From Olsenella profusa DSM 13989 (GTDB lineage Bacteria; Actinomycetota; Coriobacteriia; Coriobacteriales; Atopobiaceae), in the NCBI RefSeq assembly GCF_030811115.1, contig NZ_JAUSQK010000001.1, forward strand, positions 1,054,001 to 1,118,000: a DNA stretch of 64,000 nt, written 5' to 3'. Shown in pieces: positions 6,674 through 12,497 of this stretch. The translations under genes were made by a program, and so were the position numbers. Numbering within the stretch: position 1 is the first letter of the stretch; every line of letters starts with the position of its first letter. The notes beneath the pieces were generated by a model. It worked only from the letters and a program-made list of their open reading frames with translations, had not been told where the DNA came from and did no database searches.

Positions 6674-7243
6674 CTACCCCATGAGCCCCTTGCCGGCGGC
6701 CCACGCCCCCGCGACACGCTCCCCGAGGGCGTAGTAGTCGTTGTGGAACTGGTCGAAGATGAGGGGGTTGACCTTGGTGATGTCGGGCGCGCCGTCCGCG
6801 GAGAGCACCGTCTCGTCCGCCAGCACGTTGACGATCCTGCCCACCACGCGGTAGCCGCTTACGGACTCGCCGGCCTCGAGCACCTCGCACTCCAGCGTGA
6901 GGGGGAACTCCTCGATGACGGGGGCGTCCACGTGCTCGCTCCTCGCGGCCGTCAGCCCGGAGCGCTCGAACTTGTCCGCCATCCTGTTGCCCGTCGCGAT
7001 GCCGAAGAAGTCGGCCTCCTGGACGTGCGCGACGTCCGCGACGGCGATGGTGAAGGCCCGGCGCTCCTTGATGTTGGCGACGGTCCTGTGCGTCTCGGTG
7101 ATGTTGAGCGCCACCTTGTCGGTGCCGCAGATGCCGCCCCAGGCCATGTTCATGACGTCCACCGTGCCGTCGGGGCCGTAGGTGGCGATCATCAGCACGG
7201 GCATGGGGGCGAGGAACGGGCTGGGCTTGAGGGACCTCTTCAT
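6674..7243 (-). CDS. Flavin reductase-like (FMN-binding split-barrel) protein
   Basis: The 189-residue product matches the flavin reductase-like/split-barrel flavoprotein family: an N-terminal segment with PVLMIATYGPDG, a middle section with KVALNITETHRT and NIKERRAFTI, and a C-terminal segment describing the binding barrel. Such proteins bind FMN and act as flavin reductases or electron-transfer flavoproteins. ATG at 7243 follows an AAGGAGGAGG ribosome site. It is near two large flavin-dependent enoate reductase-type genes on the same strand, so a role in supplying or sharing electrons is possible, but the 316-bp gap argues for a separate transcript. Confidence 0.8.
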   Translation of the reverse strand: MKRSLKPSPFLAPMPVLMIATYGPDGTVDVMNMAWGGICGTDKVALNITETHRTVANIKERRAFTIAVADVAHVQEADFFGIATGNRMADKFERSGLTAARSEHVDAPVIEEFPLTLECEVLEAGESVSGYRVVGRIVNVLADETVLSADGAPDITKVNPLIFDQFHNDYYALGERVAGAWAAGKGLMG

Positions 7244-7559: not shown

Positions 7560-9491
7560 CTAGATCTTGTACGCAACGGCAGTGGCCTCCTCGGTCGCCT
7601 TGTTGGCCTTTCCTACCTCTTTCGCGTCTCCGATCACATAGACCTCAGGTGCCAGCCCCTTAAGTTCGGACTCAAGCGGATTGTACGGTTGCGAGCCCAT
7701 GGCGATGATGATGTTGTCAAAGCCCTCGGCGGTCCTCTCCGTGCCTTGCTGCCTGTAGGTTACGCCGTGCTCGCCGAACGACTCGATGGTTGCGCCCAGG
7801 ATATACGTTGTGTCGTTGGAAGCGAGGCGAGCCTTGAGATGGGTCCCCACGCCGAGCACGCCGAAGTCCACCGTTTCGATCATGTCAATGAGGGTGCTCG
7901 TGCGTCCACCCCTCTCGCGCAGGAAATCGGCAGTCTCGAGTCCCACCAGGCCAGCACCGGCAATGAGGTTGTTCCTCCCCACGGTCACCTTTCCCTCTAT
8001 GACGTCATTGGCCAAGACGACATGTGTCCCGTCAATGCCGGGGATGTTGGGAATCAGCTGCTTGGCGCCGGTTGCGAGTATGACGACGTCGGGCTTCTCC
8101 CGCTCGACCATCTCCTTGGTGAGGGGTGTGGAGAGCAGGTACGTGACGCCCTCCTTGCGGCCTTCCTGTATCCAAAAGCGAAGCGGACCTGTGATGAACG
8201 ATTTTGCGGGAGGCAGCGCCGCAATGCGGAACTGTCCTCCCGGCTTATCCTCCGCTTCGTAGAGCGTCACCGCGTGACCTCTCTTGCCTGCGACGTAGGC
8301 GGCGTACAGTCCTGCAGGACCCGATCCAGCAACAAGAACCCGCTTGGTTTCTTGTGCCCTGCCGAAGGTGTACTCGGCCTCATGCCCCACTCGGGGGTTG
8401 ACGAGACAGCATGCTTGCAGGTGCTGGGGGTCGGTCATGTAGCCCATGCAGGACTGCAGGCAGTTGATGCAGGGAGCGATTTCCGAGACGTTCCCCTCTC
8501 TGACCTTGTTGGGAAACTCCGGCTCAGCAAGGGTCTGCCTGGAGATGGAGACGAAGTCCGCCTTTCCTGTTTCGAGGATGTCCTCGGCAATCTCGGGTGT
8601 GTTGATGCGGTCGATTGCGATGACGGGGATGGAGAGCCCCTGCCGTATCTCCTCGGCATTGCGGGCGTTGAAGCCCATGGGGACGTCCTCTGGGGCACTC
8701 ATCCAGTCGAGTGAGGCATAGGTGCAGATGGTGGCCTCGACGGCGTCATAACCAGCCTCCTCAAAGTACTTTGCGAAGATCTTGGTATCGGATATCGTCA
8801 TGCCACCGGGCACCTTCTCCTCGGCGGAGAGCTTGATGATGACCGGGTAGTCCGCACCGCACCGCTTCTTGATGTCCCTGACGATTTCACAGGCGAAGCG
8901 TGCGCGATTTTCCAGTGAGCCGCCGAACTCATCGAAGCGCCTGTTGGTGAACTGCGAGAGGAACTGTTGCACCAGGTAGCCATGGCCCGCGTGTATCTCC
9001 ACGCCGTCGAACCCGGCCTCCTTGGCCCTAACGGCCGCGTTCCCAAAGAGGTGGATGTTCTGCCACACCTCCTCGGTTGCGAGCTCGTGCGGGACCTCGT
9101 CAAAGATCGGGCATGCGAGTGGCGAGGGTGCCGAGACCTGATGTCCCAGGATGGCCTTCGTGTATTGCCTGCCGGGCTGATGCAGCTGCGGAAAGATCTT
9201 GCCACCGGCTGCATGTACCGCATCGGTGACCTTCTTCCAGGCGGGGATGTGCCTGTCATCGGCAAGGGACGGCTCGAAGGGCGTGCAGAACTCGTCCTCC
9301 TGGACCCTGCTGACCTCTGTGATGATGAGGCCGTACCCTCCCTTCGCACGCGCCTCGTAGTAGGCCACGGTGCGGTCGGTGGGGGTGCCGCCGAGCTCCG
9401 CGAATCCCACGCCCATAGCCCCCATGATGAACCTGTTCTTGAGCTCGAGCGAACCAATCTTCCCCGGTTCGAATAGCTTGTCGTAGCGCAT
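7560..9491 (-). CDS. NADH:flavin oxidoreductase / enoate reductase-type (old yellow enzyme + FAD/NAD domain)
   Basis: This 643-residue enzyme has an FMN-binding TIM barrel (about 1-360) with the family signatures LHQPGRQY and EIHAGHGYLVQQFLS. Iron-sulfur ligands follow (CINCLQSC, then a CC pair), then FAD/NAD(P) Rossmann domains (VLVAGSGPAGLYAA at about 385-400, and a second dinucleotide motif AGAGLVGLETADF). This is the layout of 2,4-dienoyl-CoA reductase, 2-enoate reductase and bile-acid reductases such as BaiCD. It reduces an activated C=C bond with NAD(P)H. The substrate is not determinable. The start at 9491 has GGGGGAGGAGAG upstream. It lies downstream of a paralogue with the same layout plus an extra domain; hairpins separate the two. 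Confidence 0.85.
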   Translation of the reverse strand: MRYDKLFEPGKIGSLELKNRFIMGAMGVGFAELGGTPTDRTVAYYEARAKGGYGLIITEVSRVQEDEFCTPFEPSLADDRHIPAWKKVTDAVHAAGGKIFPQLHQPGRQYTKAILGHQVSAPSPLACPIFDEVPHELATEEVWQNIHLFGNAAVRAKEAGFDGVEIHAGHGYLVQQFLSQFTNRRFDEFGGSLENRARFACEIVRDIKKRCGADYPVIIKLSAEEKVPGGMTISDTKIFAKYFEEAGYDAVEATICTYASLDWMSAPEDVPMGFNARNAEEIRQGLSIPVIAIDRINTPEIAEDILETGKADFVSISRQTLAEPEFPNKVREGNVSEIAPCINCLQSCMGYMTDPQHLQACCLVNPRVGHEAEYTFGRAQETKRVLVAGSGPAGLYAAYVAGKRGHAVTLYEAEDKPGGQFRIAALPPAKSFITGPLRFWIQEGRKEGVTYLLSTPLTKEMVEREKPDVVILATGAKQLIPNIPGIDGTHVVLANDVIEGKVTVGRNNLIAGAGLVGLETADFLRERGGRTSTLIDMIETVDFGVLGVGTHLKARLASNDTTYILGATIESFGEHGVTYRQQGTERTAEGFDNIIIAMGSQPYNPLESELKGLAPEVYVIGDAKEVGKANKATEEATAVAYKI

Positions 9492-9549
9492 GGCAGCTCT
9501 CCTCCCCCTTGATAGCATGCTCCCCTTTGCCTCAATGCATGGAGCATGC

Positions 9550-9579
9550 CCCATCCCTGCCGCCTACGGCAGGGATGGG
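9550..9579 (-). terminator. Perfect 13-bp hairpin between the two flavoenzyme genes
   Basis: CCCATCCCTGCCG and CGGCAGGGATGGG flank a 4-nt loop. It lies between the stop at 9672 and the start at 9491 on the same strand, so the two genes may be separate transcripts. No strong U-tract follows. Confidence 0.55.
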
Positions 9580-9671: not shown

Positions 9672-12497
9672 CTAGATGCGACCCGTCTCCCGCAGGGTCG
9701 TGCGGTCGTACCACGAGGAGAGCAGGTAGGGCATGGTCGCCTTCGCGTCGACGTCGGCAAGCCTGCGCATGCCCCTCACCGTGAGGTCGAGTGTCGCGAG
9801 GCCGGCACCGATGACGGTGACCACGGGCAGCTCGCCCCAGGGGTCGTCGGGCGTGGAGCACACGTCGAGCCTGGTGACGTACGCAGGTTCCCAGCTCTTG
9901 TAGTCGTACTGCACGAGCGCGCTGAGCAGGGCGCCCGCGGTGAAGTCCGCCCCACCCTCGGCCCGTACGACGCGGTCGAAGTGATAGTAGAAGCCGCAGC
10001 CCTGGGTGGTCTTGCCCGCCGCGGGGGCCTGGAACACCCGGGACGTGAGCGGGCTGTTGTACTCGCCCAGGTCCATCTCGGCGTTGACGACCTGCCTGCC
10101 GCGCCTGCTCAGGCATGCGGTGACCCTGTCGCCGTCGCGGCGCATGACGAACTCGCCGCCCAGCTTCTTGGGCATCGAGCCGTTGTCGCGGCCCAGCTGC
10201 GTGGCCATCTCCGCGCCGTCGCCTCCCAGCAGCAGGGACAGCGAGTACTGGCCCAGCTGCTCGCCCGCGTAGCAGTATACGCCCAGGATCGCCTCGTAGT
10301 AGTCGTCGGTGAAGCTCGGGTTGTTGACGTGGTTGAGGGAGAGGGCCACCACGGGCATCGGGAAGGGGCTGAGCCCCGGTGGCAGGACGCGGGCGATGGC
10401 CTCGGGCGTCGTGGTGTAGGCGATGTAGACGCCCCGCTGGTTGCCCATGACGGAGGGGGAGCCGAAGCGCTCCACCTCGCTGTCCGCCAGATGGAAGCTC
10501 GCCTGGGGCCTCCTGTCCACAAAGAGCGAGCGTGCGGCGAGGTAGCCGCCGTGCGTGGCCGGCGAGATGTTGCCGTCCTGCATGGCGGAGCCCACCACCT
10601 GCACGTCCATGCCCCTCTCGCGCAGCTCGTCCGCGAGGCCGCGGTTGGGCCTGTTGCCCAACGAGAGCACCACGAGGTCTGCGGCGAGCTCGCTCGCCTC
10701 GCCGGTGTCGCTGCCCTCCAGGCTCACGCCGCGAGGGCTGACGGCGACGAGCTTCTGGCTCAGCTCGAAGGTGACGCCCTGCTTCCTGAGCCGGCCCATC
10801 ACGTCCGCCACGTTGGTGGCGTTGGCGCCCGGTGCCACGGTGTCCACCATGTCCACCACGGTCGTGCTCGCGGCGCCCTGGTCCGCCACGTACTCGGCGG
10901 TCTCGAGGCCGGTGAGGCCCGCCCCCACCACGACCACCCTCCTGCCCGCGACCCTCACCTGGTCGTTCAGGACCTCCGGCACGGTGGCGACGCCGTCGCC
11001 CCCGATCCCGGGTAGGTCGGGGACGATGGGGCGGCCGCCCGTCGCGCAGATGACGGCATCGGGGGAGAGCGCCATCACGGAGTCTGCCGTGGCGCGTTCG
11101 CCCAGGTGGATGTCCACGCCCAGTTCGGGCAGCACGGCGCCATAGTAGTCGGCGACGAAGCCCATCTTCTCCTTGTGGGGAGGGCGTCCCGCCAGGTTGA
11201 CGTCGCCTCCGATCCTGTCGTCTGCCTCCAGCAGGGTCACGCGCATGCCGCGCCGGGCGCCCACCTCGGCGGCCGCCAACCCCCCGGGGCCTGCGCCGAC
11301 GACGACCAGGTGATGGTGGCCGGTGCCCGGCACCAGGGGGCCATAGCGCCGCTCGTTGGCGCACTCCGCGTTGACGGCGCACTCGAGCGGCATGCACCGC
11401 TCGGCGTTCTCCTCGAGCGACTCGAAGCAGCGCAGGCAGCTGATGCACTTGCGGATCTCGGACACACGCCCCTCCTGGACCTTGCGGCCCCAGTCGGAGT
11501 CGGCGAGCCAGGCACGGCCGAGCCCCGCGAAGTCGATGATGCCCTCCTCCAGGAACCTCTCGGGCACCTCGGGCCCACGATAGGCCGAGACGGCGATGAT
11601 GGGCAGCGAGCAGCCCGCGCGCACGGCGGCGATGAGGTCGTGGCGCCAGCCCTCGGCGTAGCTCACCGGCTCGACGGAGGTTGCGCCCGTCTCGTAGATG
11701 CCGCAGGAGACGTCGATGAAGTCGATGCCCGCGCGCTCGAGCTCCTGCACGATGCGCACGCCCATCCTGATGTCGATGTACTCGCCCTCGGGGACGCCCA
11801 TGGCCCCCAGGAACTCCTCCACCGAGAGGCGGCAGCCCACGGGGAGGTCCGTGCCGCAGCGCTCGCGGATGCCCGCGATGATCTCCAGCACCAGGCGCAT
11901 GCGGTTCTCGAAGGAGCCGCCGTACTCGTCCTCGCGCTTGTTGGTGTAGGGCGAGAGGAACTGCTCGAGCAGGTAGCCATGGGCGCAGTGCAGCTCGATG
12001 CCATCGACGCCGGCCCTCTGGGCGCGCACGGCCCCCTCGATGAACTCGTCGCGGATGTGCTGCACCTCGTCATGTTCGAGGGCGCGCGTCCTCTGCTGGG
12101 TGTGCTTGCAGGGGATGGCCGAGGGGGCCACCACGGGCTGGCCGCCGATGAGGCTGGAGTAGGTCTCGCGGCCGGGGTGATGCAGCTGGAGGAACAGCTT
12201 GGCCCCATGGCGATGGACGGCGCCTACGAGCCGTGCGATGGCCGGGACGTTGCGATCGCGCGTCACGGAGATCTGGCGCATGAGCCCCACGCCGGTGACG
12301 TCGTCCACGCGGCAGATCTCGGGCATGATGAGCCCGGCGCCGCCGGCCGCGCGGGCCTCGTAGTAGGCGATCATCTCGTCGCCCGGCGTGCCGTCCAGGT
12401 TGGCGAGTCCCACGCCCATGGGGGTCATCACCAGACGGTTCTTGATATGCACCCCTGCGATCCTGCCGGGTTCGAAGAGCCTCTCGTAGCTTGCCAT
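9672..12497 (-). CDS. Old yellow enzyme-type oxidoreductase fused to an acetoacetate decarboxylase-like domain
   Basis: The 941-residue product joins two enzymes. Residues about 1-660 repeat the layout of the neighbouring enoate reductase-type protein: FMN barrel with LHHPGRET and HCAHGYLLEQFLSPYTNKR, iron-sulfur cysteines (CISCLRC and ECAVN), and two dinucleotide folds (VVVGAGPGGLAAAEVG and VVVVGAGLTGLETAEYV). Residues about 664-941 look like an acetoacetate decarboxylase (ADC) domain: start GNQRGVYIAYTTTPE, proline-rich LPPGLSPFPMP, and a paired lysine in MPKKLGGEF (about 773-774) where ADC carries its Schiff-base lysine. A single continuous frame with no break supports a real fusion. The likely logic is reduction of an unsaturated acid or ketone coupled to handling of a beta-keto acid, which is inference. 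ATG at 12497 has AGAGAGGA upstream; an in-frame ATG lies 5 codons before it. Confidence 0.8.
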   Translation of the reverse strand: MASYERLFEPGRIAGVHIKNRLVMTPMGVGLANLDGTPGDEMIAYYEARAAGGAGLIMPEICRVDDVTGVGLMRQISVTRDRNVPAIARLVGAVHRHGAKLFLQLHHPGRETYSSLIGGQPVVAPSAIPCKHTQQRTRALEHDEVQHIRDEFIEGAVRAQRAGVDGIELHCAHGYLLEQFLSPYTNKREDEYGGSFENRMRLVLEIIAGIRERCGTDLPVGCRLSVEEFLGAMGVPEGEYIDIRMGVRIVQELERAGIDFIDVSCGIYETGATSVEPVSYAEGWRHDLIAAVRAGCSLPIIAVSAYRGPEVPERFLEEGIIDFAGLGRAWLADSDWGRKVQEGRVSEIRKCISCLRCFESLEENAERCMPLECAVNAECANERRYGPLVPGTGHHHLVVVGAGPGGLAAAEVGARRGMRVTLLEADDRIGGDVNLAGRPPHKEKMGFVADYYGAVLPELGVDIHLGERATADSVMALSPDAVICATGGRPIVPDLPGIGGDGVATVPEVLNDQVRVAGRRVVVVGAGLTGLETAEYVADQGAASTTVVDMVDTVAPGANATNVADVMGRLRKQGVTFELSQKLVAVSPRGVSLEGSDTGEASELAADLVVLSLGNRPNRGLADELRERGMDVQVVGSAMQDGNISPATHGGYLAARSLFVDRRPQASFHLADSEVERFGSPSVMGNQRGVYIAYTTTPEAIARVLPPGLSPFPMPVVALSLNHVNNPSFTDDYYEAILGVYCYAGEQLGQYSLSLLLGGDGAEMATQLGRDNGSMPKKLGGEFVMRRDGDRVTACLSRRGRQVVNAEMDLGEYNSPLTSRVFQAPAAGKTTQGCGFYYHFDRVVRAEGGADFTAGALLSALVQYDYKSWEPAYVTRLDVCSTPDDPWGELPVVTVIGAGLATLDLTVRGMRRLADVDAKATMPYLLSSWYDRTTLRETGRI

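Follow-up and report, generated by a model that had tools for sequence, protein, structure and literature searches.

The window, that is, the entire stretch of 64,000 nucleotides of Olsenella profusa DSM 13989 DNA that was analysed, contains on the minus strand, at 9672-12497, one uninterrupted frame of 941 aa that starts with the ATG at 12497, which is preceded by the purine-rich AGAGGA, and ends with the stop at 9672. Translation, which yields no internal stop, confirms the intact single frame reported in the preliminary description of this locus. A frameshift or assembly artefact was rejected, as at least 23 genomes have this frame uninterrupted. The junction of an old yellow enzyme (OYE)-type module with an acetoacetate decarboxylase (ADC) domain, also proposed there, is upheld by both Pfam profile and structure matches. 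Thus, the union of the two domains is real and conserved. The G+C content of the fusion gene is 70%, compared with 61% for the neighbouring paralogue and 63% for the window. The features of the two genes are as follows:

9672-12497, minus strand: coding sequence of the fusion protein (ene-reductase plus ADC-like domain), from translation and Pfam, kept at full length in homologues
11463-12479, minus strand: FMN TIM-barrel Oxidored_FMN, residues 7-345 (Pfam E 9.5e-63)
11973-11990, minus strand: HCAHGY, residues 170-175, from the sequence; H170, H173 and Y175 are invariant in 8 aligned fused proteins
11379-11447, minus strand: 4Fe-4S cysteines C351-x2-C354-x2-C357-x15-C373, invariant in the aligned fused proteins
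10626-11312, minus strand: FAD/NAD(P)H domain Pyr_redox_2, residues 396-624 (Pfam E 2.2e-29)
9753-10448, minus strand: ADC-like domain PF06314, residues 684-915 (Pfam E 6.5e-34; AlphaFold pLDDT 92.3; Z 25.7 to 3bh2)
10164-10169, minus strand: K777 and K778, the Schiff-base lysine pair (ADC Lys115/Lys116), from an alignment of 38 ADC-fold sequences
10293-10295, minus strand: E735 (ADC Glu76), invariant in the 38 sequences
10437-10439, minus strand: Q687 at the position of ADC Arg29; Gln in 14/14 fused rows, Arg in 8/8 true ADCs (register to 3bh2)
10338-10340, minus strand: S720 at the position of ADC Glu61; Ser in 14/14 fused rows, Glu in 8/8 true ADCs (register to 3bh2)
7560-9554, minus strand: BaiCD-like ene-reductase paralogue without an ADC domain, outside the fusion, from Pfam; a distant branch of the OYE tree

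The N-terminal module contains the FMN barrel, the four Fe-S cysteines and the FAD/NAD(P)H domain in the order expected of a long OYE, and residues 3-657 align with 1ps9 and 6qkg over about 650 residues. The HxxHGY signature is present in every fused protein compared, and its HCAHGY version in the O. profusa fusion comprises the carbonyl-binding His pair and the catalytic, proton-donating Tyr of OYEs. The fusion protein scores far below every equivalog cut-off of the models for BaiCD-type long OYEs, in particular 417.8 bits against the BaiCD equivalog (NF041087; cut-off 825), and it reaches 392 bits with the long bilirubin reductase model (cut-off 750).

The C-terminal domain, which is the single ADC match in the genome (one contig, 2.62 Mb), scores 117.9 bits against a PF06314 gathering score of 29.8. 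An AlphaFold model of this domain alone, built with 38 diverse sequences, has a pLDDT of 92.3 (a full-length model with 8 close sequences had a pLDDT of 49 and was left unused). Foldseek matches the domain model to the ADC fold with E 5e-17, and structure alignment (Foldseek, VIA-align) yields Z 25.1-25.7 for ADCs (3bh2 25.7, 3bgt 25.3; 3cmb 22.6), 22.6-22.9 for an aldolase-dehydratase (6eej 22.9), 22.1 for Swit_4259 and 21.4-21.7 for MppR; no comparable match was found among structures outside the ADC fold, where the next unrelated one has Z 7.2. The domain accordingly matches ADC in both the profile search against the family, as had been suggested, and the structure search, the two comparisons on which the preliminary assignment was made to depend. 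The paired-lysine motif MPKKLGG that led to this assignment is indeed present, as residues 775-781, and includes K777, which is presumably enclosed in the pocket judging from its homologous position in the ADC fold.

In the 38 diverse ADC-fold sequences, K777 and E735 are invariant and K778 nearly so, and Tyr733 along with the segment GRDN..xPKK is kept across Coriobacteriia and Clostridia. Thus, among the residues of acetoacetate decarboxylase (EC 4.1.1.4), the fusion keeps Lys115, Lys116 and Glu76 but not Arg29 and Glu61, two active-site residues expected of a decarboxylase. With the residue register to 3bh2 and 4zbo taken from the alignment, positions 29/61 are Q/S in all 14 fused rows, R/E in all 8 true ADCs and Q/Y in the 5 rows from split clusters (unfused ADC and OYE genes in one cluster, see below). 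Four stand-alone rows have I/Y, and 5 ADC-like rows from actinobacteria have G/D; the aldolase-dehydratase 4zbo also aligns with Gly/Asp. The presence of Ser at position 61 in the fusion, in contrast to Tyr in the split relatives, implies that their chemistry may differ. In the ADC tree, which was built without the aldolase-dehydratase and MppR proteins from the PDB, the true ADCs form a branch apart from the fused ones and the Gly/Asp rows from Actinomycetota fall on a separate long branch.

The paralogue at 7560 has an open frame of 664 aa in the window, with the true start likely near 9491 (MRYDKLFEPG after GGAGGAG). Pfam finds no ADC domain in it, in agreement with the earlier observation that this gene has the first module only, but the suggestion that one of two neighbouring duplicates gained the second module does not hold: the paralogue is a distant branch of the OYE tree, so that a recent local duplication with domain gain in one copy was rejected. 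The difference in Fe-S spacing between the two proteins (Cx2Cx2C in the fusion vs Cx2Cx3C in the paralogue) is real, but any special meaning for the fusion is not supported. All fused proteins and all 5 split-cluster OYEs have the CxxCxxC spacing, as do many relatives without the fusion, among them another gene of O. profusa (L002); it is therefore a mark of a wider, mostly unfused subfamily, whereas CxxCxxxC predominates in the remaining OYE branches; accordingly, the spacing was rejected as a feature of the fusion. In O. profusa F0195, the frame of the paralogue (L022 8367-9893) is open for 508 aa with similarity to separated parts, so this gene looks disrupted, while the fusion there is still intact. 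Between the fusion gene and the downstream paralogue, at 9550-9579, there is a perfect 12-bp hairpin (CCCATCCCTGCC, 6-base loop, GGCAGGGATGGG, minus strand) without a T run that may mark the end or attenuation of transcription between the two genes. The same strand also encodes, downstream of the paralogue (6674-7243), a Flavin_Reduct (PF01613) protein, a possible FMN-handling partner.

A survey of genomes for the same fusion, proposed in the preliminary description, detected it in both Coriobacteriia and Clostridia. Family-wide, 10 of 140 genomes have an ADC match and 9 of these 10 contain the fused frame; in total, fused genes were found in 9 Coriobacteriia (Olsenella profusa and its kin) and 14 Clostridia genomes, so that at least 22 genomes besides its own share the whole two-module frame. 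The fusion protein of O. profusa F0195 is 98% identical to that of the window. Within the family, the neighbourhoods contain single frames of 952-1105 aa, the longest of which have over-extended starts. When the ADC domain alone was used as the query against named genomes, all 18 loci retrieved were fused (Olsenella, Tractidigestivibacter, Clostridium sp., Lachnotalea glycerini, Cuneatibacter, two Acetobacterium species, Mogibacterium and other MAGs), with lengths of 936-985 aa except for the over-extended O. profusa frame, and order-wide searches added four further fused genes. Among 396 sampled Actinomycetota genomes, there are many ADC-family matches, but no other listed match lies in a frame of fusion size, and searches of plasmid and phage collections returned no match to the fusion. 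A tree of 66 long OYEs places the 19 fused proteins on one side of a branch with SH-aLRT support of 100 and the paralogue in a distant part; it is a quick tree with long branches, so exact positions are uncertain, but a deep split separates the fused proteins from the paralogue. The fused proteins also come out as a single clade (100/99) in the ADC-domain tree, where their nearest relative is the stand-alone ADC of genome G566 (98/94, on a long branch). Thus, within the sampled sequences, the fused proteins form one clade in the trees of both domains, and their patchy occurrence in Coriobacteriia and Clostridia suggests spread by horizontal transfer.

In Clostridia, a divergent PucR-type regulator adjoins the fusion in 7 loci and 4 further ones, and in most of these 11 loci an SDR is encoded directly downstream of the fusion. 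Neither gene is adjacent to the fusion in Olsenella, where the best match to the SDR is 33% identical and there is no clear counterpart of PucR. None of the genes neighbouring the fusion names a substrate. The contexts of three loci (L045-L047; serine dehydratase, cobalt transport) and of the Olsenella relatives (thrS, DUF2252, helicase) show no conservation and were disregarded.

In 5 genomes, an unfused ADC and an unfused OYE of the same CxxCxxC subfamily are encoded in one cluster, and the respective ADCs are among the unfused ones nearest to the fusion in the tree. SDRs are present in 4 of the 5 clusters and a glycyl-radical diol-dehydratase-like enzyme in one. In particular, the gene order in G583 is membrane protein, OYE, ADC and double SDR with gaps of 13, 2 and 12 bases, that in G581 is similar, and in G567 and G564 the order is membrane protein, OYE, SDR and ADC. 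In G566 (L087 5109-11762), a glycyl-radical enzyme, its activase, ADC and OYE are encoded in one row; the glycyl-radical enzyme contains GCVEP and RVAGY and reaches 987 bits with the (2S)-3-sulfopropanediol dehydratase model, just short of its cut-off of 1000, and the row probably represents an uncharacterised pathway. The clustering of OYE and ADC as separate genes indicates that the two activities are linked, fused or not. A hydrophobic protein of 320-343 aa that gave no match in a Pfam search, possibly a transporter, is conserved directly upstream of the split-cluster OYE (L092 301-1332, L093 11371-12339, L094 4335-5345, L095 4461-5489). A second group of stand-alone ADC-like proteins, with Ile at 29 and Tyr at 61, occurs in Lachnospirales (L088-L091), where a gene for about 500 aa follows immediately downstream; the one that was checked (L088) is DUF362-type.

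A reductase for activated C=C bonds joined to a domain that has the Schiff-base lysine and lacks two decarboxylase residues is most simply explained by sequential action on one ketone. We propose, with a probability of roughly 0.45, that this is a bifunctional enzyme in which the ADC-fold domain makes or repositions a conjugated C=C bond without decarboxylation and the reductase saturates the enone. Under this scheme, K777 would form an iminium (Schiff base) with a ketone, and dehydration of a beta-hydroxy ketone, double-bond isomerisation or aldol-dehydration in the ADC-fold domain would produce a conjugated C=C bond; the resulting enone would be reduced by the NAD(P)H-driven FMN/Fe-S/FAD module. 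In Clostridia, ketone and alcohol would probably be interconverted by the SDR encoded next to the fusion, and the PucR-type regulator would sense the substrate or a related compound. We infer the iminium chemistry, the order of the steps and the coupling of the two sites. The formation and reduction of an enone is favoured by the intact ene-reductase core in every fused protein, the clear structure matches to ADC-fold enzymes (6eej, MppR), the retention of the Schiff-base lysine and Glu76 along with the loss of R29 and E61, the fusion of all loci retrieved with the ADC query combined with the clustering of the split genes, and the recurrence of PucR and SDR beside the fusion in Clostridia. The aldolase-dehydratase and MppR share the ADC fold and neither is a decarboxylase.

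Membership in PF06314, the ADC fold, the equivalents of K115/K116 and E76 and the fact that the top structure matches (3bh2, 3bgt) are decarboxylases would all fit a true decarboxylase that acts on a beta-keto (or vinylogous) acid, with the OYE module reducing the C=C bond before or after. We consider this unlikely because R29 and E61 are replaced in every fused row and kept in every true ADC, and the true ADCs belong to a separate branch. Thus, of the beta-keto acid decarboxylation or handling envisaged previously, decarboxylation is weakened by Gln687 and Ser720, whereas ketone handling through iminium chemistry remains likely from the residues retained. The loss of R29 and E61 removes support for decarboxylation and by itself does not demonstrate dehydration or isomerisation. 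The good matches to the aldolase-dehydratase and MppR are also consistent with an ADC-like domain that is primarily an iminium-based aldolase or retro-aldolase joining or cleaving carbon skeletons, with the reductase taking the enone, and the closest unfused ADC (L087) is clustered with the glycyl-radical enzyme, a possible aldehyde source. This role also seems improbable to us given that positions 29/61 differ from those of the aldolase-dehydratase as well and that no aldehyde donor was seen near the fused genes. ADC-fold proteins are oligomeric and, with two active-site residues of the founding enzyme lost, the domain could be non-catalytic and serve in substrate binding, oligomerisation or channelling; this is very unlikely because retention of the lysine pair, Glu735, Tyr733 and GRDN..xPKK in both Coriobacteriia and Clostridia would hardly be expected without catalysis.

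Gene fusions tend to unite consecutive steps. The predicted bifunctional enzyme draws on two known enzyme families; it couples iminium chemistry to ene-reduction in acetogens and in anaerobes living in the mouth, gut and rumen, and outside the fusion the same coupling is seen in the split clusters. If an enone is indeed formed and then reduced, the fusion would provide anaerobes with a new route for stripping hydroxyls from, or rebuilding, ketone substrates and would be a ready-made two-step biocatalyst. A more specific possibility, which we regard as doubtful, is a new class of bifunctional enzymes consisting of a lysine (iminium) dehydratase and a flavin ene-reductase on one polypeptide that perform reductive dehydroxylation of beta-hydroxy ketones independently of CoA thioesters, fed and drained by the adjacent SDR and controlled by PucR. 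The OYE-ADC union is apparently undescribed, as no description of such a fusion was found in the literature library searched.

Several known systems resemble parts of the fusion. The BaiCD and 2,4-dienoyl-CoA reductase-type long OYEs (NF041087; 1ps9, 6qkg) have the same order of FMN barrel, 4Fe-4S and FAD/NAD(P)H domains, from which the fusion differs by the CxxCxxC spacing and the additional C-terminal ADC domain. The ADC of C. acetobutylicum (3bh2) shares the fold (Z 25.7) and the equivalents of Lys115/Lys116 and Glu76, whereas in the fusion Arg29 is replaced by Gln and Glu61 by Ser, the identity is about 19% and a reductase is attached. The aldolase-dehydratase of S. bingchenggensis (4zbo/6eej), the PDB title of 6eej being 'in covalent complex with dienone product', and MppR (4jm3) share the fold with the fusion domain at Z 21-23 but are only 17-19% identical to it, and both are stand-alone enzymes; like the fusion, the aldolase-dehydratase 4zbo is without the R29/E61 pair of ADC, but its own residues at these positions differ from those of the fusion. 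In its logic, the fusion is most closely matched by an OYE-type steroid 5beta-reductase from the gut with a C-terminal 3beta-HSDH/delta5-4 isomerase domain, which its authors showed to make and then reduce an enone (PMC12238238). This protein likewise combines an OYE-type reductase with a C-terminal enone-preparing domain, but the partner is a Rossmann-fold dehydrogenase/isomerase rather than an ADC-fold lysine domain.
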